Shown here one piece after another: positions 1,124 through 11,920 of a stretch of DNA of 23,476 bases. The position numbers were made by a program, and so were the translations under genes. Source of the DNA: a virus; the IMG/VR virus record IMGVR_UViG_3300028410_000068, positions 1 to 23,476 of that record, one strand, 5' to 3'. The notes beneath the pieces are model-generated. The model was given only the letters and a program-made list of their open reading frames with translations. It did no database searches and was not told where the DNA came from. How positions within the stretch are numbered: position 1 is the stretch's first letter; every line of letters starts with the position of its first letter.

Positions 1124-4100
1124 ATGCCAACAGATGAAAGAATTCAGATATCCGAACTACCAGAACTTGACCCTCTAGATTTTGACTCAGAGAACCTACT
1201 TATAGTTAGAAAGATATCTAATAACGTGGACTATAAGTTTAAAGTCTCATCACTAAGGAATCTGATTTCTAATGTTGTTATAGGTAGTGGTAGCGTTATT
1301 ATTGATGATTTGGTGAATTTGATTGTCCCACAAGTAGAGTCCAATTTTGAAGCGTTCTTAGAAGAACAGTTAATAGACTCTCTCCAAAGTAGTGAAGTTC
1401 TTGAGATAGTAAATAATGCCATAAAAGAAGTTACTTCTGCTTTAGAGATTGATGAAAGAAAAGATATTGTAGCTATAGTTAATGGTATCTTTGAGAATGC
1501 CCAAAATAGCAGGGAGCTTGACAGGGCTTTAGACATAGTTAACAAGAAAGTATTTAGTATAGCAGAGAGTTTTATCCCAAGATTGGAGAGAGACTTAGCT
1601 AAAGTAAATGAGGACTTAGAGAATTTAAACTCAGCTGATCTAATTAATCTGCAATCTGACTTAGATACCCTGACAGGAGAACTAAGTACATTAAACACAG
1701 TTACCTTAACAGGTATAGTCAGTGATATCACCGCCCTAAATGAAGCACTAGAAGGGATAGGGGAAGCTGATCTTTCTGGTGTAGAGTCAGATCTCCGAGA
1801 CTTAAGCGATAAGATTGACATCCTAAACGATACAACTATCCCCGATGTTAACACCACCTTATCTGGACTTAATGATGACTTGACTGCATTAGATGATAAG
1901 TTTCCCTTAGCTACAGAGGATCTAGCAGACGGCATTATAACTAATGCTAAAATAGGTTTGAAAGCTATATTAGCAGGTAGCCTAGCAGATGGTACTATAA
2001 CTAGTGCTCAGATGGGACCTAACTCTGTACTAGGAGGTATATTAGCTGACAATGCTGTCTCTGTTAGTAAGATAGTAGATGGAGCTATTACAGCCCTTAA
2101 ATTGGGTAATGGATCTGTTACTAGTGATAAAATTGGCACAGGTGCTGTAAGCAATAATAAAATTATTGATGGAGCTATCACGGAGTTAAAGCTAGGAAAT
2201 TTAGCAGTAACTAATGCTAAGATAGGAGCCAATGCAGTTACTGGAGGGAATATACTTGGGGGTACTATAACTGGTAATAAGATTGCTGGTGAGACCATCA
2301 CAGGTACGTTAATAGCCGCTAATACTATAGTTGGTGGAAATATTCTTAGTGGTAGTGTGAATGCTAATAGATTAGAAGCTAGCACTATCACAGCAGGACT
2401 TCTTGCTTCAGATGCAATCATAGCTAGGCATATCTTAGCTGGAGAGATCACTGGTGATAAGATAGCCGCCAGTACTATCACGGGTGGCAAGATAGTAGCT
2501 AATTCTATAGATGGTGATAGAATAACCACTAATACATTAAATGCTTCTAAGATAGTAGCAGGTAGCATTGGTTCTGACAGGATAGCCGCTAATACTATCA
2601 CAGCGGGGAATATAGCCGCTAATGCAATAGGTGTTAGTGAGTTAAGTGCAAATAGTGTAAACGCAAGTAAAATTGTAGCTGGTAGTATCACTACTGATGA
2701 GATAGCCGCCAATACTATAGAAGCGGGTAATATTAAAGCTAACACTATTACTGGTAGTGAAATCCTAGCTGGTAGTGTTGGTGCTGATAGAATAGTAGCT
2801 AATAGTATAACCACTACACAACTGTCAGCAGGTAATATTAACGGCAATGTAATCACAGCTAACACTATTAATGGTGATAGGGTAATAGCTAACACTATAA
2901 ATGGTAATAGGATAGTAGCAGGAAGTTTAGGAGCTGATAGGATAACAGCTAATAGCTTAACCGCTGGACAAATAGCCGCTAATGCAATAACTACTAGTGA
3001 ACTAGCCAGTAACTCTGTTACAGCAGTAAATATTTTAGCCGGTAACGTGACAGCGGGGAAACTCTCTGCTAATAGTGTCGTAGCAGGGAATATTCAAGCG
3101 GGTCAGATTACAGCTACCAAGATGGCTGTAGATGCAATAGAGACTAGTGCAATTAAGGCTGGGGCTATTGTTGTTGATAAATTAGCCTCCAATAGTATAT
3201 CAGCAATTAAGATACAGTCAGATGCCATAACCTCTGACAAGATTTTAGCTGGGGCAGTAACTGCGATAAAGATACTCTCAGGGTCTATCACTACAGCTAA
3301 GTTAGATGCCTCAGCAGTGACAGCAGATAAGATAGATGTTGGAAGCCTCACAGGTGTTATCCTAACAGGTACAATCCTTAGAACTAAGGCTTCAGGCAAT
3401 AATAGAGTAGTAATTGGTGACACAACATTCCCACTGTGGTTTGGGGATGGTACAGTTGGAACATCAGGTGGTAAGTTCTATGTAACTAATGGTGGTGTCA
3501 TAGTAGCTAAGAATATTGTCATTAGTGGTAATAGTCAATTCGGGGGAACTCTAAACGGGGCTACAGGAACTTTCTCAGGAACTTTGAGCGCCGCTACAGG
3601 ATCATTTAGCGGAGGGATAACTTCTAGCACAATATCTGGGGGTGTAATTAGATCCCCTAGAATGGAGCTAGTAGGGTCTAACTTTATGAAGGTTGAATTG
3701 GCGAATGGATTTGGCCCTGATAACTTATGGTATTGGTTTGGGTCTAAAACTGTAGATGGTAGTGGCAACCCAGTACTGACTAACTTAAGCAAAGCTAATG
3801 CAAAGGAATGGAAAGACACTAATGGAAACGCTTACTTTGGTGGGACATTAAGTGCAGGGACACGATCTGAAGCAATTAGGACTGGTAATAAAAACTTAAA
3901 CCGATCTATCACATTAGGTCCATTTGGTAGTGGAGGGGGAAATAGAGATGTAACTGTGAGTTTTAACTACTCCGCTGGATATAACAGTGGCCCCTGTGAT
4001 AACTCACCAACCCAACCTTCAGGTAAATTAAAACTGTACAGGTCATTTAACGGCTCCAGTTTTAGTCAGATTGGGGGGACTACAAACTTGTCAGGTTCGA

Positions 4101-4294
4101 CCACATCAAACAACTCTCCTTTTGGCAGTGGGTGCTTCACAGAGGAAGAGATGTTTGGGAGTATAACGACTACGGATACCTCAACGACTACAGGTAATGT
4201 CTATTATAAAGCTGAAATTACTGACCAAGTTAGGTATCATAATGTACAAGACATACAAGACCAAGAGCTATCAATAATAAGTGTAGAAGAGTAA
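1124..4294 (+). CDS. Long tail fibre / central fibre protein with decapeptide repeats
   Basis: A 1056-residue fibre. Residues 1-50 (ISELPELDPLDFDSENLLIV) look like a virion-attachment domain. Residues ~55-260 are heptad-rich and probably coiled coil (NLQSDLDTLTGELSTLN and a second similar block). Residues ~269-748 are an uninterrupted array of 10-residue repeats described separately. Residues ~760-850 hold shaft-type turns (GTFSGTLSAATGSFSGG), and the last ~200 residues form a distinct globular part with an LWYWFGSK segment like those in fibre proteins with DUF1983-type regions. It ends in a Gly/Ser/Thr-rich tip followed by an acidic tail. An AGGAG six bases before the ATG supports the start. 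The product should be a trimeric fibre that positions the receptor-binding tip; no enzymatic motif is visible. The large antisense frame opposite the repeats is a codon-bias shadow. Confidence 0.85.
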   Translation: MPTDERIQISELPELDPLDFDSENLLIVRKISNNVDYKFKVSSLRNLISNVVIGSGSVIIDDLVNLIVPQVESNFEAFLEEQLIDSLQSSEVLEIVNNAIKEVTSALEIDERKDIVAIVNGIFENAQNSRELDRALDIVNKKVFSIAESFIPRLERDLAKVNEDLENLNSADLINLQSDLDTLTGELSTLNTVTLTGIVSDITALNEALEGIGEADLSGVESDLRDLSDKIDILNDTTIPDVNTTLSGLNDDLTALDDKFPLATEDLADGIITNAKIGLKAILAGSLADGTITSAQMGPNSVLGGILADNAVSVSKIVDGAITALKLGNGSVTSDKIGTGAVSNNKIIDGAITELKLGNLAVTNAKIGANAVTGGNILGGTITGNKIAGETITGTLIAANTIVGGNILSGSVNANRLEASTITAGLLASDAIIARHILAGEITGDKIAASTITGGKIVANSIDGDRITTNTLNASKIVAGSIGSDRIAANTITAGNIAANAIGVSELSANSVNASKIVAGSITTDEIAANTIEAGNIKANTITGSEILAGSVGADRIVANSITTTQLSAGNINGNVITANTINGDRVIANTINGNRIVAGSLGADRITANSLTAGQIAANAITTSELASNSVTAVNILAGNVTAGKLSANSVVAGNIQAGQITATKMAVDAIETSAIKAGAIVVDKLASNSISAIKIQSDAITSDKILAGAVTAIKILSGSITTAKLDASAVTADKIDVGSLTGVILTGTILRTKASGNNRVVIGDTTFPLWFGDGTVGTSGGKFYVTNGGVIVAKNIVISGNSQFGGTLNGATGTFSGTLSAATGSFSGGITSSTISGGVIRSPRMELVGSNFMKVELANGFGPDNLWYWFGSKTVDGSGNPVLTNLSKANAKEWKDTNGNAYFGGTLSAGTRSEAIRTGNKNLNRSITLGPFGSGGGNRDVTVSFNYSAGYNSGPCDNSPTQPSGKLKLYRSFNGSSFSQIGGTTNLSGSTTSNNSPFGSGCFTEEEMFGSITTTDTSTTTGNVYYKAEITDQVRYHNVQDIQDQELSIISVEE
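1928..3367 (+). repeat. About 48 in-phase 30-bp (decapeptide) tandem repeats inside the long fibre gene
   Basis: Aligned by eye from residue ~269 to ~748, the protein breaks into ten-residue units with no register slip. Typical units are ANTITAGNIA, ANSVNASKIV, AGSITTDEIA and ANTINGDRVI. The pattern is [A/D/S]-[N/G]-[T/S/A]-[I/V/L]-x-x-x-x-[I/L]-x, with buried-type residues at positions 4 and 9. The early units (DGAITALKLG, NGSVTSDKIG) are more divergent and Lys/Gly rich. The regular hydrophobic spacing fits a trimeric beta-helical shaft. DNA identity between units is only moderate, so these are old, diversified repeats with some recent-looking neighbours near 2855-2920. Confidence 0.85.
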
Positions 4295-4315: not shown

Positions 4316-5134
4316 ATGGCAATTAATCCAGTAAAGCCAATAACATCTAGCAATGCCACAGCAACAAATGGAAGTACTACTGTAAGCGTCACAGGGGCTG
4401 TAGATTGCTCTAAGATATATCAAGGCAGTATCTTACACTTAGGCGGTAATAATCCCGTAGAGGCTATATCAGGCACTGTAGCTAACGGTAGTGGTGTGAG
4501 TACGATCACCTTAAGAAACAACTGGCCTTTTTCAACTATAACAGGGCCCTTACTGGTTTTCAATACTATTGAGGGATTAGTGGGGGCTATACAGAAAGCC
4601 CAGCAAATAGTAGAACAAACATCTGGGTTAGAATCTATTGGAGGTACAGGGTTTGTAGAGAAGACAGGGGATAACACTTACTCAACACTAACAGCCACTA
4701 CTAAGGGAAAGCAGATACTGAGTTCCGCTGATTCCCAAGAGGCTAGAGATATTATTGATCTAGGAACAAGTGCTATAGCTGATCTTACTACTTCTCCATC
4801 TGACGCCACAGCTAACCGAGTTTTTAAAGTTGGAGATAATGTAGGGATTACATTTGGGTCGAACACAAACGGTAGTTTTACACGTTGGCCCGATGGAACA
4901 ATGATATGCTACCACACCATAACAACTTCAGCTAGTGGAGAGGTTAGTTGGACATTCCCTTCAGCGTTTGACGCCAACCCAGTAGTAACGGGAAATCCAG
5001 TAACTACAGACATTGTAATATACGGGTTAACAGTAAAGTCATCGAGTACATCAGCGGCTGAAATAAACTTATTGAGTGGAACCTCAAGAGTCTCAAAACC
5101 CGTAAATCTAATAGCGATTGGGAGATGGAAATAA
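4316..5134 (+). CDS. Tail fibre protein, probable receptor-binding tip
   Basis: A 272-residue protein following the long fibre by 21 bp. Residues ~1-85 are Ser/Thr/Val rich and beta-type (TSSNATATNGSTTVSVTG), then comes a helical stretch (GLVGAIQKAQQIVEQTSGLE), a shaft-like segment around DNTYSTLTATTKGKQILSS, and a C-terminal domain from ~190. That domain contains GSFTRWPDGTMICYHTI, a pattern common at fibre tips (NGSFTRWPDGT followed by beta strands), and it ends in LIAIGRWK. The AAGGA eight bases before the ATG at 4316 supports the start. Together with the two small genes downstream it forms a fibre plus accessory unit. Host-receptor binding is inferred from position and the C-terminal pattern, not from a recognised ligand site. 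Confidence 0.75.
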   Translation: MAINPVKPITSSNATATNGSTTVSVTGAVDCSKIYQGSILHLGGNNPVEAISGTVANGSGVSTITLRNNWPFSTITGPLLVFNTIEGLVGAIQKAQQIVEQTSGLESIGGTGFVEKTGDNTYSTLTATTKGKQILSSADSQEARDIIDLGTSAIADLTTSPSDATANRVFKVGDNVGITFGSNTNGSFTRWPDGTMICYHTITTSASGEVSWTFPSAFDANPVVTGNPVTTDIVIYGLTVKSSSTSAAEINLLSGTSRVSKPVNLIAIGRWK

Positions 5135-5883: not shown

Positions 5884-6222
5884 ATGGAAGATAACCCTAG
5901 CTTGTGGAGTCTAGTAATAGCTCTATCGACTTTAGTAGGGGGTGGGGCATGGTTTTGGTACGATAAGAAAGCTAAAGATAAAGAATTTAGTAATCTAAGT
6001 GAGAAAGTAACAAAACTTAGTGATAAGCAGATAGAGCAAGAGAATAAGTTTGTAACAGAAACTCGTACAAGAGAGATCCTCAGGGAAGAGATTGCAGAAC
6101 TAAAGAAGGATATTTCTAGCGTCAAAACCCATGTCTATAGTATTAGTGATAACTTATCTGGCTTAATAGTCGAGATAAGGGTTCTAACTGCTATACAAGA
6201 CTTACTAAAGGATAAACAATGA
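5884..6222 (+). CDS. Membrane-anchored coiled-coil protein in lysis block (holin/antiholin candidate)
   Basis: 112 residues: a single N-terminal membrane segment (about residues 7-25, LWSLVIALSTLVGGGAWFW), a basic stop-transfer YDKKAKDK, then a long amphipathic helix of ~80 residues with heptads (NLSEKVTKLSDKQIEQ, REEIAELKKDISSVK). The positive-inside rule places the coiled coil in the cytoplasm. GAGGAG eight bases upstream fixes the start. It overlaps the response-regulator gene by four bases (ATGA), so the two should be translationally coupled. Small proteins of this shape are frequent beside phage lysis genes and are sometimes annotated as holin-like; I cannot assign one function. One His lies in the helix (VKTHVYS), but there is no histidine-kinase H-box or ATPase domain. 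A membrane tether for the downstream receiver protein is an untested possibility. Confidence 0.6.
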   Translation: MEDNPSLWSLVIALSTLVGGGAWFWYDKKAKDKEFSNLSEKVTKLSDKQIEQENKFVTETRTREILREEIAELKKDISSVKTHVYSISDNLSGLIVEIRVLTAIQDLLKDKQ

Positions 6223-6635
6223 GAGTGTTCCTAATAGATGATGACTTGAAGGTATTAGTCGTCTTATCCAAAATACTGAAGGAGGCTAATATAAGTGGAG
6301 CTTTCTGCGCCTCATCTACAGTAGATGTTGTGGAAAAGATTCTAAATTTCTTACCAGATATTATTATTCTAGATTTGTATATGCCGGAAAAAGATGGCTT
6401 CTGTCTCTATGATGACTTAAGAAAGATTAAGGAGCTTGATCATATTCCGATATTAGCTACGTCCTCCTCAGAGAATATGAAAGATAGATTAAGAACTATT
6501 AACACGGGGTTTAATCAATTTCTGCCTAAGCCTATCACAAAAGAGAGTTTACTCAAGGCGATAAACACAGAGGCGGCGTTAAGTCAGATATCTAGAAGTA
6601 TATCTCAAGCACTCTTAACACTAGAGAGGTATTAA
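6219..6635 (+). CDS. Stand-alone response regulator receiver (CheY-like)
   Basis: A 138-residue receiver domain with every catalytic feature in place: the acidic Mg-binding pair D7-D8 (FLIDDD), phospho-acceptor D52 in ILDLYMPEKDG with the MP and G60 signature, T81 in ILATSS, F98 at the usual Tyr/Phe switch position, and K104 in PKP. The length covers one alpha/beta receiver fold plus a ~15-residue C-terminal helix; there is no DNA-binding or enzymatic output domain. It starts within the stop of the upstream membrane coiled-coil gene (ATGA) with AAGGA six bases upstream, and its stop directly abuts the spanin gene start. It therefore lies inside the lysis operon. Receivers are phosphorylated on Asp by a histidine kinase or small phosphodonor; no kinase is visible nearby. 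It could sense or divert host two-component signalling. The family call is firm, the role is not. Confidence 0.93.
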   Translation: MRVFLIDDDLKVLVVLSKILKEANISGAFCASSTVDVVEKILNFLPDIIILDLYMPEKDGFCLYDDLRKIKELDHIPILATSSSENMKDRLRTINTGFNQFLPKPITKESLLKAINTEAALSQISRSISQALLTLERY

Positions 6636-7061
6636 ATGATAATTAAAATTCTCTCCTTAATAAAAAACTATAAAAAGATAGGTTATATTATTGGAGCAGT
6701 AACGGTTATAGGTACGCTATATTTAGGCTACCAAAACTTTCAAGATAAATATTTTCAACAAGGGTACTCACAAGCTAAGCAAGAATATGATGTTATGGTA
6801 GCTGAAGCTGTCAATAAAAATAGAGTTGAGTATGAATTAAGATTAGTTAAACTAAGACAATCTCTGAGACAACAAGCAGTGGATGAGCAAGCTAGAAGAG
6901 TAGCTGAGGTAGCCACTGATAAAGAGGTAGTTAAAGTTGTAGAATATATAGAGAGGAAAATTTATGTTAAGAAAGAGTGTAATACTGTTGACCCTGTTCT
7001 TATCAGCTTGTTCAACGATTCCGTCAGTAGAGTCAATAGTAGTGGAGAAGATAAACCCTGA
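6636..7061 (+). CDS. i-spanin (Rz-like), inner-membrane lysis protein
   Basis: A 141-residue protein with the i-spanin layout: a short basic N-terminus, one membrane anchor (about residues 14-32, IGYIIGAVTVIGTLYLGY), then a periplasmic, helix-forming, charged segment rich in Gln/Arg/Glu (VKLRQSLRQQAVDEQARR). The C-terminus KKECNTVDPVLISLFNDSVSRV matches the usual EC-x(3-5)-P-x-LxxLxNxxxxRVN ending of Rz proteins. The spanin complex joins inner and outer membranes and fuses them after the wall is degraded, so the host should be Gram-negative. The o-spanin gene begins inside this gene in another frame (98-bp overlap), a classic arrangement. The gene follows the receiver gene with no gap; GAGAGG lies about six bases upstream of the start. 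Confidence 0.85.
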   Translation: MIIKILSLIKNYKKIGYIIGAVTVIGTLYLGYQNFQDKYFQQGYSQAKQEYDVMVAEAVNKNRVEYELRLVKLRQSLRQQAVDEQARRVAEVATDKEVVKVVEYIERKIYVKKECNTVDPVLISLFNDSVSRVNSSGEDKP

Positions 7062-7260
7062 GCTATTTAAAGCTCCTGTGACGCCATCTTTACTAATACC
7101 ATGTAGGGTAGCTTACCCTCTAGCAGTTTATGAGGGTGAGGGGACTCTGGAGAGCTTCTATAGCATCTCAGCGTACAACTTAGGTCAAGTTGAGAAGTGT
7201 TATGATAAGGATGAGGCTTTAGTTAAAGAAATACGGGAGGATGAGGATGGAAATCCATAA
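6964..7260 (+). CDS. o-spanin (Rz1-like) outer-membrane lipoprotein
   Basis: A 98-residue protein with a lipoprotein signal peptide: MLRK, a hydrophobic core, and lipobox L13-S14-A15-C16. Cleavage before C16 would leave an 83-residue lipoprotein. The mature part contains a Pro-rich segment (INPELFKAPVTPSLLIPC) and later a second Cys (VEKC), typical of Rz1-type proteins such as those with PPALLxPC near the start and a G(T/E)xxxL region after it. The gene starts in a different frame within the last 98 bases of the i-spanin gene and has AGAGG seven bases upstream. The pair would form the membrane-spanning spanin complex. The N-terminus after C16 is Ser/Thr, not Asp, consistent with outer-membrane sorting. 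Confidence 0.87.
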   Translation: MLRKSVILLTLFLSACSTIPSVESIVVEKINPELFKAPVTPSLLIPCRVAYPLAVYEGEGTLESFYSISAYNLGQVEKCYDKDEALVKEIREDEDGNP

Positions 7261-7486
7261 ACAGCTAAGAGAGTTTGCTACTACTCTCAATAGGTTTTGC
7301 TTTATAGAGATAATGGTCCTTGGATTCTTTTGTTGGCTCTGTTACGACTTACTAATGTGGTATAAGTCTATAATGACAGTTGATAGCTTTAACGCTACAG
7401 CATTCTGGGCGGCAATGACAGGTATTATAGCTGGGGTATTTACAACCATTAAGCATATAAACTCAACTTTCGATAAGGATAAATAG
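7247..7486 (+). CDS. Holin candidate, two transmembrane helices
   Basis: A 79-residue membrane protein with two predicted helices: about residues 17-37 (FCFIEIMVLGFFCWLCYDLLM) and 50-70 (AFWAAMTGIIAGVFTTI), followed by a charged tail (STFDKDK). Size, topology and location after the spanin genes fit a class II-type holin, the small protein that permeabilises the inner membrane at the end of infection. I choose the ATG at 7247 rather than 7241: GGGAGG at 7235-7240 is six bases before 7247 but directly abuts 7241. Two closely spaced starts (MRMEIH versus MEIH) recall dual-start holins, but here only the second has proper spacing. It overlaps the end of the o-spanin gene by 14 bases. Confidence 0.65.
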   Translation: MEIHKQLREFATTLNRFCFIEIMVLGFFCWLCYDLLMWYKSIMTVDSFNATAFWAAMTGIIAGVFTTIKHINSTFDKDK

Positions 7487-7489
7487 TAA

Positions 7490-7900
7490 ATGGATATAAT
7501 TAGGAGAGAGTTTAAAACTCATTGTGAAGGTAAGATGATGTACCCAGATGATAGCTATACTTGGTGTCTGGAAAGGCCTTGGCTAGACAATACTCCGTAC
7601 TTAAGCTGTATACCTTATGGGAGTTATTTAGTAGTCCCAGATGATACAGGCAGGTTCAGGTATTTCAGGATCATGGATGTCCCTATGAGGACTGATATAG
7701 AGTTTCATGGGGCTAATAGGGTAGAGGAGCTACTAGGCTGTATAGCTCCTTGTATGAGCCTTAAGAATGGCATAGGCTATAGAAGTAAAGATGCCTTAGC
7801 CAAACTAGTTAGTTGGTATAGTGATGACAAAGGAGTTAAGAAATCTTTTATACTAAACATAGTCAAGTACAGTCCTTTTAAACATGGTAAATGGAAATAG
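7490..7900 (+). CDS. DUF5675-like protein, last gene of the lysis block
   Basis: A 136-residue protein resembling DUF5675: an early Thr/Leu-Glu strand (YTWCLERPWLDNTPYLSCIP), the GSYLVVPDD strand, a RFRYFRIMDVPMRTDIEFH segment ending in HGAN, and GCIAPCMSL. The HxxN/GC(I/V) core is the recognisable part of that family, which is widespread near phage tail and lysis genes and is uncharacterised as far as I know. It is the only candidate in this window for a wall-active enzyme, since no lysozyme, amidase or transglycosylase is visible; however its catalytic residues cannot be assigned. Start is an ATG three bases after the holin stop; AAGGATAAATAGTA supplies a weak ribosome site. It ends at the hairpin that separates the two convergent gene sets. 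Confidence 0.7.
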   Translation: MDIIRREFKTHCEGKMMYPDDSYTWCLERPWLDNTPYLSCIPYGSYLVVPDDTGRFRYFRIMDVPMRTDIEFHGANRVEELLGCIAPCMSLKNGIGYRSKDALAKLVSWYSDDKGVKKSFILNIVKYSPFKHGKWK

Positions 7901-9362: not shown

Positions 9363-9590
9363 TTAATCTTTATTTTTAAAGTGTATGATTGTTTTATTAT
9401 TCTTCCGTACAAAATAAGAGACACCTAAGACAAGGAAATATACTATAACTGAGACAAGGGTCATTAATCCAAATACGGTCCCAAAGAATACCTCATCTGT
9501 AGTTAGTCTACCTCCCTCTACTTTAGCCACTCCCAGTGTAGCTACAAATCCCGCCAATACCCATATCATCACACCTAATAAGATTTCCAC
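9363..9590 (-). CDS. Small two-helix membrane protein, unknown
   Basis: A 75-residue protein with two hydrophobic segments: about residues 3-22 (ILLGVMIWVLAGFVATLGVA) and 37-62 (FGTVFGLMTLVSVIVYFLVLGVSYFV), joined by a short polar loop, with a basic C-terminus (RKNNKTIIHFKNKD). It starts with GTG, whose G is the last base of the upstream TAG, with AAGGG four bases before; this suggests re-initiation by ribosomes finishing the GHKL-like gene. It is the last gene before terminator site 1. No family recognised; it could be an inner-membrane peptide affecting superinfection or the host envelope, but nothing in the sequence shows that. Confidence 0.7.
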   Translation of the reverse strand: MEILLGVMIWVLAGFVATLGVAKVEGGRLTTDEVFFGTVFGLMTLVSVIVYFLVLGVSYFVRKNNKTIIHFKNKD

Positions 9591-10597
9591 TAGCCCTTAA
9601 CATTCCAACGGAGGTCTTTAAGTTTGACTTCTCTTAAGTTAACTTGATTACCACTACTAGCTAAAATAGACTCATCAAGCATATCTACCCGAAATGAGTT
9701 GTGAATTTCAATAGCCGCCGCAACTTCTCCCTCTAGCAGTATCTGTTGGATAATCATATTATCTTCAGCTAAGTCTGTTGTAATCTTTTCAGAGAATACT
9801 AGAGAGTCCACAGCATCTAAACCTTTACTATCATCAAATAATTCTACTGTTACTGTTTTACGTGTTGTCATGTTTATATTTCCTTTTTGGTCGTTTAAAT
9901 TAATATCACTAACTTCTGTATCTGCATTGCAATAATCAAAGTACTCATCCCAACCCTCCACACTCTGTCTGTCACGATTAAGTTTTAACTTAGATGGGTT
10001 AAAGTCATAACTGTATTCTAATTCTGTCTCTGATACCCAAATACCCCCAACATAGATATTACAACACCGCTCAAGAAGTATTCTACCATTTTCCGTTGCT
10101 ATAACTTTGCCAACAGATTCCTCGGATTGCATGTACAAACATCTGTCCTGAATTTGGTCAAACATGTCTTGGTTTATATCATGTATGGCAATTGTAAAGT
10201 CATCACTGCTCTTAAAGGTATCTTGGTATTCATGTATAGCTAAGAAATTAGCATCAAAATCCTCGGAGTGTTCAAACTTAGGTATCCACTGTTTTGAGCC
10301 ATTATAGATAATAACTTCATGCCCCTCCCTAAGCAATACACCCATACTAACGACTAAACCCTCTCCATGTCTACCAACTGATTCTTCTTTACCTCTATTC
10401 TCAGAGACTCCCATTAATAAGTATTTAGCATCTAAGGTAAAGTTTTTAGTAGTTAGGACTAAGGTGTTAGATGAGTAATCCCACTCAAAAGGATTGTCAG
10501 AGTCTAGTGCATTAGTCACAAATTCCCTTACTCCATCTACTGCTGACCATGATAGGCAATATTGATCTGATATCATGGTGTTGTATACTTTATTCAT
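9590..10597 (-). CDS. GHKL-ATPase-like phage protein with C-terminal extension
   Basis: 335 residues. The N-terminal ~110 residues look like the ATP-binding fold of the GHKL group (MutL, Hsp90, histidine kinase, T4 rIIA): N-box-like E25-x-x-x-N29-A30-x-D32 in REFVTNALDSDN, then LLMGVSENRG and the lid glycines VGRHGEGL (74-81). The DxGxG adenine-binding motif expected near residue 50 is absent (TKNFTL), as in a phage subgroup I recall with NTxL at that place, so ATP binding is possible but unproven. Residues ~110-225 may be a transducer-like domain. From M243 (MTTRKTVTVELFDD) begins a 93-residue module with its own ribosome site. GAGGAG before the ATG at 10597 supports the start. The role in infection is unknown. 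Confidence 0.65.
   Translation of the reverse strand: MNKVYNTMISDQYCLSWSAVDGVREFVTNALDSDNPFEWDYSSNTLVLTTKNFTLDAKYLLMGVSENRGKEESVGRHGEGLVVSMGVLLREGHEVIIYNGSKQWIPKFEHSEDFDANFLAIHEYQDTFKSSDDFTIAIHDINQDMFDQIQDRCLYMQSEESVGKVIATENGRILLERCCNIYVGGIWVSETELEYSYDFNPSKLKLNRDRQSVEGWDEYFDYCNADTEVSDINLNDQKGNINMTTRKTVTVELFDDSKGLDAVDSLVFSEKITTDLAEDNMIIQQILLEGEVAAAIEIHNSFRVDMLDESILASSGNQVNLREVKLKDLRWNVKG
9869..9885 (-). promoter_or_regulatory. Internal ribosome-binding site and start codon within the GHKL-like gene
   Basis: AAGGA (9885-9881) is followed after nine bases by ATG (9871-9869), in frame with the GHKL-like gene. Translation from here would give a separate 93-residue protein covering the C-terminal module. 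The spacing is like that of the true starts in this window. Confidence 0.5.
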
Positions 10598-11342: not shown

Positions 11343-11735
11343 TTACTCCTTAATCCTAAACCACTTATCTTTAGGATTATACCCAGAGATAGCTATCCAT
11401 TTATATCCTTGCCCAGAGAGTCTGTCCCTAGACTTAACCCTGAGCATACGGTTATCTAAAACCCACCCCTGAACCTCTAGCACACAATGCCCTTCACCAC
11501 TTTCTGTAAGGCATACTACTAACCTACTATTCTCTATATTCTTTCTTCTACATAACATCCTACAAGCCAATGCAAAGTCTTCACAATCCCCAACTATACT
11601 TGTAGTTCCATTGTAGAACTCAGGTGGGGCTACCCATTTCTCTAAAGTTTGATATTGCTCTAAGTCAGTCTTGTACTCAAAGTTATTAAGCACAGTCCTA
11701 TGGATACTCCTTAACACTTCTAATAAATCATCCAT
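11343..11735 (-). CDS. Transglutaminase-like cysteine peptidase (BTLCP-like)
   Basis: A 130-residue protein with the catalytic triad pattern of bacterial transglutaminase-like cysteine peptidases (Pfam BTLCP): Cys51 in VGDCEDFALACRML, His83 in GEGHCVLEV and Asp94 in GWVLDNR. The N-terminal helix with EYKTDLEQYQTLEKWVAPPE precedes the Cys as in that family. It is short, lacking a signal peptide, so action in the cytoplasm, or in the envelope after lysis, would be inferred. I take the ATG at 11735, overlapping the TAA of the lipoprotein gene (TAATG), rather than an upstream TTG. Cellular BTLCPs cleave adhesins (LapG) or modify envelope proteins; some phages carry one of unknown target. Being coupled to a lipoprotein gene suggests an envelope-related job, but this is inference. 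Confidence 0.8.
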   Translation of the reverse strand: MDDLLEVLRSIHRTVLNNFEYKTDLEQYQTLEKWVAPPEFYNGTTSIVGDCEDFALACRMLCRRKNIENSRLVVCLTESGEGHCVLEVQGWVLDNRMLRVKSRDRLSGQGYKWIAISGYNPKDKWFRIKE

Positions 11736-11920
11736 TAGCAATCAAACTCAGGGTTTTCTTTCTGAGCCTCCTCACATCCAGTGACAATAACTTCTACATT
11801 TGTCGTTTCAAAGGGTGTAGGAGGGGCTACAGCGGCACAAGAGACTATAGCTAATGCACTTGCTAGGGCTAGGAGTTTAAAAGCCGTCAGAGGTGCTGTA
11901 AAGTGTTTATAATTTTTCAT
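11735..11920 (-). CDS. Small lipoprotein
   Basis: A 61-residue protein with a type II signal peptide: MKNYKHFTAPLTAFK, a hydrophobic core (LLALASALAIV) and a lipobox-like IVSC with Cys28. The mature 34 residues are Pro/Thr/Glu-rich with two further Cys (TGCEEAQKENPEFDC). I place the start at the ATG at 11920 because GGGGA is five bases upstream; a longer frame to 11998 only runs over the preceding gene. It overlaps the end of the upstream gene by 14 bases and its stop overlaps the peptidase start. Export to the host envelope is predicted from the signal; a superinfection-exclusion lipoprotein is one possibility, without direct evidence. Confidence 0.7.
   Translation of the reverse strand: MKNYKHFTAPLTAFKLLALASALAIVSCAAVAPPTPFETTNVEVIVTGCEEAQKENPEFDC

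Follow-up and report, generated by a model that had tools for sequence, protein, structure and literature searches.

A complete single-domain receiver, encoded directly downstream of a small membrane-anchored coiled-coil protein (TM-CC), recurs within the lysis cassettes of marine alteromonad phages. On the evidence of sequence it is the recurrence of this arrangement that is new: homologues of the receiver are known as auxiliary metabolic genes (AMGs), and in the open-access literature we found no paper that links a receiver to phage lysis or places these homologues in a lysis cassette. The case described here is a stretch of 23,476 nucleotides of viral DNA (the window; IMG/VR record IMGVR_UViG_3300028410_000068), and the claim covers the alteromonad-phage group rather than phage receivers at large. 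The simplest reading, which fits the recurrence, the conserved chemistry, the constant partner and the location in the cassette, is a lysis regulator; we give about an even chance to the receiver being phosphorylated by the host and modulating lysis, as an accessory regulator, through the membrane coiled coil.

The lysis cassette of the window

All genes between 4316 and 7900 run in one direction, no gap between them exceeding 10 bases, in the order tail fibre, two unknowns, TM-CC, receiver, i-spanin, o-spanin, 2-TM protein, DUF5675 (Table 1). No convincing terminator was found inside this block, where the scan returned one site and chance alone would give 2.2 on average; beyond the last gene come a hairpin and then genes on the opposite strand.

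Table 1. Features of the gene block around the receiver, in window coordinates.
Feature	Position	Strand	Basis
Tail fibre	4316-5134	+	
TM-CC, 112 aa, partner of the receiver	5884-6222	+	Homologues upstream of receiver; AlphaFold2; hydropathy
ATGA start/stop overlap, TM-CC/receiver	6219-6222	+	Sequence
Receiver, single-domain, 138 aa	6219-6635	+	PF00072; AlphaFold2; alignment of 16 receivers
Extended α5 stalk helix, receiver residues 108-137	6540-6629	+	AlphaFold2/DSSP
i-spanin, N-terminal TM and periplasmic helix	6636-7061	+	phrog_4297, Rz-like spanin
o-spanin lipoprotein, lipobox LSAC	6964-7260	+	Overlapping-gene architecture; lipobox
2-TM protein, holin candidate	7241-7486	+	Role from topology and position
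DUF5675 protein, probable endolysin	7490-7900	+	PF18925, E 1.3e-17; role from position

The i-spanin matches its profile weakly in the window (E 0.0076) and more firmly in its homologues (down to 3.4e-8); the o-spanin gene starts within it, a layout shared by the relatives. The holin candidate is conserved together with the cassette, at 40-60% identity. In c25191 and PB15 the slot of DUF5675 is occupied by a Peptidase_M15_3 endolysin, and DUF5675 is for this reason probably an endolysin here as well; it may represent an uncharacterised endolysin family. Other endolysins are seen in this slot in A5, R9Y and c22407. The label of a lysis operon, given in a previous sequence-only reading of the window, is supported by the spanin pair with its LSAC lipobox, the 2-TM holin candidate and the endolysin candidate; the receiver is co-directional with all of these, the roles of the latter two being inferred.

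Several further observations concern the cassette and its surroundings. Two contigs carry a near-identical ORF of 244 aa between o-spanin and holin candidate (L014:6491-7225 and L017:6123-6857), perhaps a homing endonuclease. In c25655, TM-CC, receiver and holin candidate have homologues in the relatives and the spanin pair (L021:5414-6152) is seemingly unrelated to theirs, which looks like a spanin replacement inside a conserved cassette. Elsewhere in the window, a 1056-aa tail protein (1124-4294) contains long imperfect repeats (NANTITAGNI-like), over which lies a long reverse-frame ORF (2008-2895), and the opposite-strand block encodes a transglutaminase-like cysteine protease (11343-11741, minus strand; PF06035, E 1.3e-12).

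A complete receiver with an extended last helix

The receiver matches PF00072 over residues 3-116 (E 1.7e-19; score 70.4 bits, cut-off 30.2), covering the profile end to end (1-111 of 111), and the Pfam search returned no other domain. Its AlphaFold2 model has the receiver fold (pLDDT 88, pTM 0.80) and aligns in VIA-align to the structures of PleD, WspR, NtrC1 and PhoB with Z of about 20; for PleD (20.9) and WspR (20.6), 137 residues are aligned each, so that the alignment spans the whole model and matches the receiver plus linker helix of these two proteins. The domain is thus intact and, as previously read, without an output domain, although its last helix, α5, continues well past the Pfam domain as one unbroken helix of 30 residues. 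This extension is common to the receivers considered here, with 29-49 residues following the Lys in every aligned relative.

The gene is tied closely to both of its neighbors, as had been proposed. The four-base overlap with TM-CC is present, is shared with XX1924, R9Y1, H4/4, R8W, c37790 and c38545, and likely couples the two genes translationally; on the other side, the TAA stop codon (6633-6635) directly adjoins the ATG of the i-spanin gene at 6636. In PB15, the annotated start of the response regulator (L007:3989-4387) at 4010 is probably wrong, as an ATG upstream of it, at 3989, restores both the N-terminus and the four-base overlap with TM-CC.

An alignment of 16 receivers, which go down to about 20% identity with that of the window, places the active site at D7, D8, D52, S82, F101 and K104. 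D8, D52 and K104 are invariant, so that no homologue lacking D52 or K104 occurs among the 16; position 7 is D or E (E in one receiver), position 82 S or T (S in 15, T in one), and position 101 Y or F (F in the window, Y in the other 15). Of the residues named previously, D7/D8, D52 and K104 hold, whereas the two switch residues had been misplaced, T81 by one residue and F98 by three, given that the alignment conserves S82 and F101; the other receivers have I, M, L, V or T in column 81 and F, C, G or I in column 98. dN/dS is 0.07-0.24 for six receiver pairs, a seventh being saturated at synonymous sites, and 0.035-0.29 for six TM-CC pairs. The receiver is under purifying selection, and the Pfam match, the fold and dN/dS rule out a chance ORF. 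Conservation in the alignment suggests a working phosphorylatable domain, with D52 as the putative site.

Affinity to other receivers

By profile, the phage receivers are closer to PleD, PhoB and the receivers of long response regulators than to CheY: the nearest profiles to the window receiver are the PleD, PhoB, DivK and BarA receivers, and the best NCBIfam matches are PleD, CtrA, PhoB and DivK, with the CheY models ranking lower and under their cut-offs. The name CheY-like is therefore apt for a single-domain receiver but not for a CheY-specific identity, which the profile ranking rules out. PleD and WspR, taken as receiver and linker helix together, are closest by both profile and fold and have a similarly long α5 stalk; they carry a GGDEF output domain, however, which the window receiver lacks. 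A DNA-binding regulator of the PhoB/OmpR type is ruled out as well, since the protein has only 138 residues and only a helix, in place of a winged-helix domain, after the receiver. CheY, DivK and Spo0F are stand-alone phosphorylatable receivers that work through protein binding; unlike them, the window receiver is phage-borne, has no cognate kinase, and possesses a C-terminal stalk and a constant TM-CC neighbor.

These relationships bear on a possible decoy for chemotaxis or flagellar control, imitating CheY at FliM or CheA. While the protein is a single-domain receiver of the size of CheY, it resembles PleD, PhoB or DivK at least as closely as CheY, which weakens this proposal of the sequence-only reading, and its long α5 stalk is a further point against it; we consider such a decoy very improbable.

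On a first tree the phage receivers form one cluster (support 82/56); with closer bacterial receivers added, a single origin has a p-AU of 0.30.

Recurrence in the lysis cassettes of alteromonad phages

Including the window, the receiver is found in 22 phage records. The cultured carriers, all Alteromonas phages, are V22, A5, H4/4, R8W, XX1924, PB15, R9Y1, R9Y2 and R9Y3, among them a myovirus (V22), a schitovirus (A5) and Autographiviridae (H4/4 and R8W), with siphophages also represented among the 22; the IMG/VR carriers (contig numbers shortened from the IMG/VR names) are c22693, c25191, c38530, c24581, c25655, c22407, c48672, c28584, c2785511424, c37790, c38545 and c30361, with c1054 left out as a duplicate of c25191. 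Carriers were collected by similarity of the receiver and by similarity of TM-CC or the holin, most receivers being identified by their own similarity and not by location. Matches of tblastn in 'phage' records of faecal, Listeria and Acinetobacter origin were left out, as they resemble host DNA. With the c25655 receiver as query, 42 of 50,697 phage records matched, the best 11 of which are all Alteromonas phages; a single-sequence search of IMG/VR with the window receiver gave no match, nor did a search with XX1924/PB15. Receivers had been called rare in phages, which by and large holds for the single-domain kind; in alteromonad phages, however, this one is a recurrent gene.

The 22 records come from several unrelated phage lineages, and their receivers fall into about twelve clusters that are less than 75% identical to one another. 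They do not count as independent cases, given the exchange of modules between A5 and V22 (PMC10579305), and the cassette block may itself have spread by exchange, all cultured hosts being Alteromonas. In every one of the 22, the gene immediately 5' of the receiver encodes a TM-CC (read from match coordinates in R9Y2 and R9Y3), and no receiver without this neighbor was seen among the phage records examined. The 3' neighbors vary and are nearly all lysis genes: the i-spanin, a GH108 endolysin (R9Y), an M15 endolysin (PB15), DUF5675 (XX1924) or other TM proteins. A placement away from the lysis genes, which would have counted against the earlier reading, was seen in none of the records examined: in each, the receiver is inside a lysis cassette and immediately after the TM/coiled-coil gene.

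Some of these genes have been described before. V22 gp30 and A5 gp11 were published as CheY-like class II AMGs within a 'host recognition module'; gp29, gp31 and gp32 were given no function (PMC7289586, PMC10579305). Both are homologous to the window receiver and share with it the order TM-CC, receiver, i-spanin, 2-TM protein; we read gp29, gp31 and gp32 as TM-CC, i-spanin and holin candidate, that is, as a lysis cassette. R8W g48 was published as PhoB and read as an adaptation to phosphate (PMC8228385); it and H4/4 gp44 differ from PhoB in having no DNA-binding domain and, as in the window, lie beside a TM-CC gene, with an annotated holin adjacent.

The grouping in PMC10579305 would make the receiver part of a host-recognition module on the side of the tail fibre. 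It does lie just 3' of the tail fibre and chaperone genes, and is exchanged with these between A5 and V22, but the genes 3' of it to which that paper assigns no function are candidates for spanin and holin, and in XX1924, PB15, R9Y1 and H4/4 the receivers sit among holin and endolysin genes; we therefore attach very little probability to this grouping.

The membrane coiled-coil partner

TM-CC begins with a short hydrophobic segment (residues about 6-22; hydropathy 1.56 over 17 residues), followed by the juxtamembrane motif WFWYDKK and one long helix (20-111 in the AlphaFold2 model); the coiled coil is predicted to be cytoplasmic. V22, A5 and IMG/VR contigs carry homologues in the slot directly 5' of the receiver. 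An assignment to DUF2730 was rejected at 22.1 bits, under the gathering cut-off of 24.9. No host or prophage copy was confirmed in a pattern scan of genome contigs, and a search of 369 genomes yielded one marginal match (E 9.8e-4), inside a frame of 633 aa.

Three types of TM-CC, mutually unrelated by sequence, fill the slot before the receiver. Type 1, found in the window, has the N-terminal TM, the WFWYDKK motif and the long helix just described; type 2 (R9Y/H4) also has an N-terminal TM, with an hhalign probability of 1% to type 1; type 3 (XX1924/PB15) has the reverse layout, its TM lying at the C-terminus, and matches the hemolysin/XhlA-like phrog_937 (E 1.2e-12). XhlA of PBSX and the phrog_937 hemolysins are small membrane coiled-coil proteins of lysis cassettes, to which the TM-CC of the window has no detectable homology; we know of no XhlA that is paired with a receiver.

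The slot can also do without the receiver. c12147 (L013), placed as sister to A5 by a tree built on TM-CC, i-spanin and holin candidate, carries TM-CC together with the spanins and the holin candidate. Ten bases separate TM-CC from i-spanin, and no PF00072 match occurs anywhere in the 72 kb of this record. The receiver is thus an optional part, added to a TM-CC with a function of its own, and TM-CC is not kept solely as a dock for it, as its C-terminus is equally conserved in this receiver-less cassette. The earlier suggestion that the coiled coil tethers the receiver gains support, at the level of sequence, from the three unrelated types in one slot and from c12147.

A constant partner, translational coupling and an optional presence would also suit a subunit with a structural or chaperone-like function in a TM-CC membrane complex, for which phosphorylation is incidental. 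Full phosphorylation chemistry in all 16 receivers, over so wide a range of identity, would be unexpected for such a subunit, and we regard it as improbable.

The phosphoryl donor and the host

No HATPase_c domain above cut-off was found in the ten records searched for a histidine kinase, and the TM-CC alignment has no invariant His, which also rejects TM-CC as a phosphotransfer (HPt) protein; any phosphoryl group thus has to come from a kinase of the host or from acetyl phosphate. An ORF of 335 aa on the minus strand (9590-10597; phrog_6077, of unknown function) shows GHKL-like motifs by eye (REFVTNALDS, GRHGEGL). It was rejected as a phage kinase, having no Pfam match and being present in one other record (c48672) and absent from 12 of the 13 searched, so that it does not track the receiver.

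Between the window and V22, identity is 33% for the receiver, 46% for TM-CC and 60% for the holin candidate; the receiver diverges faster than the neighboring lysis genes, which would fit a host-facing surface. This divergence, the intact phosphorylation site in the absence of a phage kinase, the restriction of the cultured carriers to Alteromonas, consistent with a host-specific partner, and the published AMG reading (PMC7289586, PMC10579305) all favor a modulator or sink of host signaling: a receiver phosphorylated by host kinases, or bound to partners in the host, late in infection, rewiring a stress, c-di-GMP, motility or phosphate pathway with no direct role in lysis. The late operon would then be where accessory genes accumulate, and TM-CC may merely hold the receiver near the kinases. 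This leaves unexplained why a TM-CC of one of three types is constantly found 5' of the receiver within lysis cassettes, and why in PB15 and XX1924 the receiver lies between an XhlA-like gene and an endolysin; we consider it possible, though on balance unlikely.

A proposed phospho-dependent regulator of lysis

In the lysis regulator that we favor, a hybrid or sensor kinase of the host, or acetyl phosphate, would phosphorylate D52; phosphorylation would alter the docking of the receiver, through its α4-β5-α5 face or the α5 stalk, on the cytoplasmic coiled coil of TM-CC; and the change in docking would raise or lower the effect of TM-CC on holin triggering, so that lysis timing would follow host physiology, by delay or by trigger. 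TM-CC would also have a role independent of the receiver, as one cassette retains it without one. The steps from phosphorylation through binding to lysis time are inferred, and the full chain, from host kinase through phage receiver and membrane coiled coil to holin gating, spread across unrelated alteromonad phages with three partner types, remains tentative, somewhat short of an even chance.

Lysis input is favored over a phosphate sink or a motility decoy by synteny only, as sequence cannot separate the three, and synteny may mislead here, since accessory genes of unrelated kinds are commonly found between the tail fibres and the lysis genes. The extended α5 stalk, as modeled, would count for the lysis regulator; the faster divergence of the receiver relative to its lysis neighbors and the conservation of the TM-CC C-terminus without a receiver would count against it. 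A precedent for regulated timing is found in phage N4, where the lysis regulator and pinholin gp62/gp63 act via a cytoplasmic region (PMC12642591); the 'Receiver domain' named there is a short region of the pinholin and not a two-component receiver.

The reading bears on the published AMG assignments (CheY, PhoB) that enter marine AMG surveys, and the cultured phages V22, A5, H4/4, R8W, PB15, XX1924 and R9Y1-3 make it directly testable. The time of lysis ranks among the main life-history traits of a phage and is known to be regulated by membrane potential, antiholins and superinfection signals. If true, lysis gated by a phosphorelay would be, to our knowledge, the first direct link from the phosphorelay state of a host to phage lysis timing, and host signaling, be it of energy, redox, phosphate or envelope stress, would set the timing of the burst in an abundant marine bacterium.
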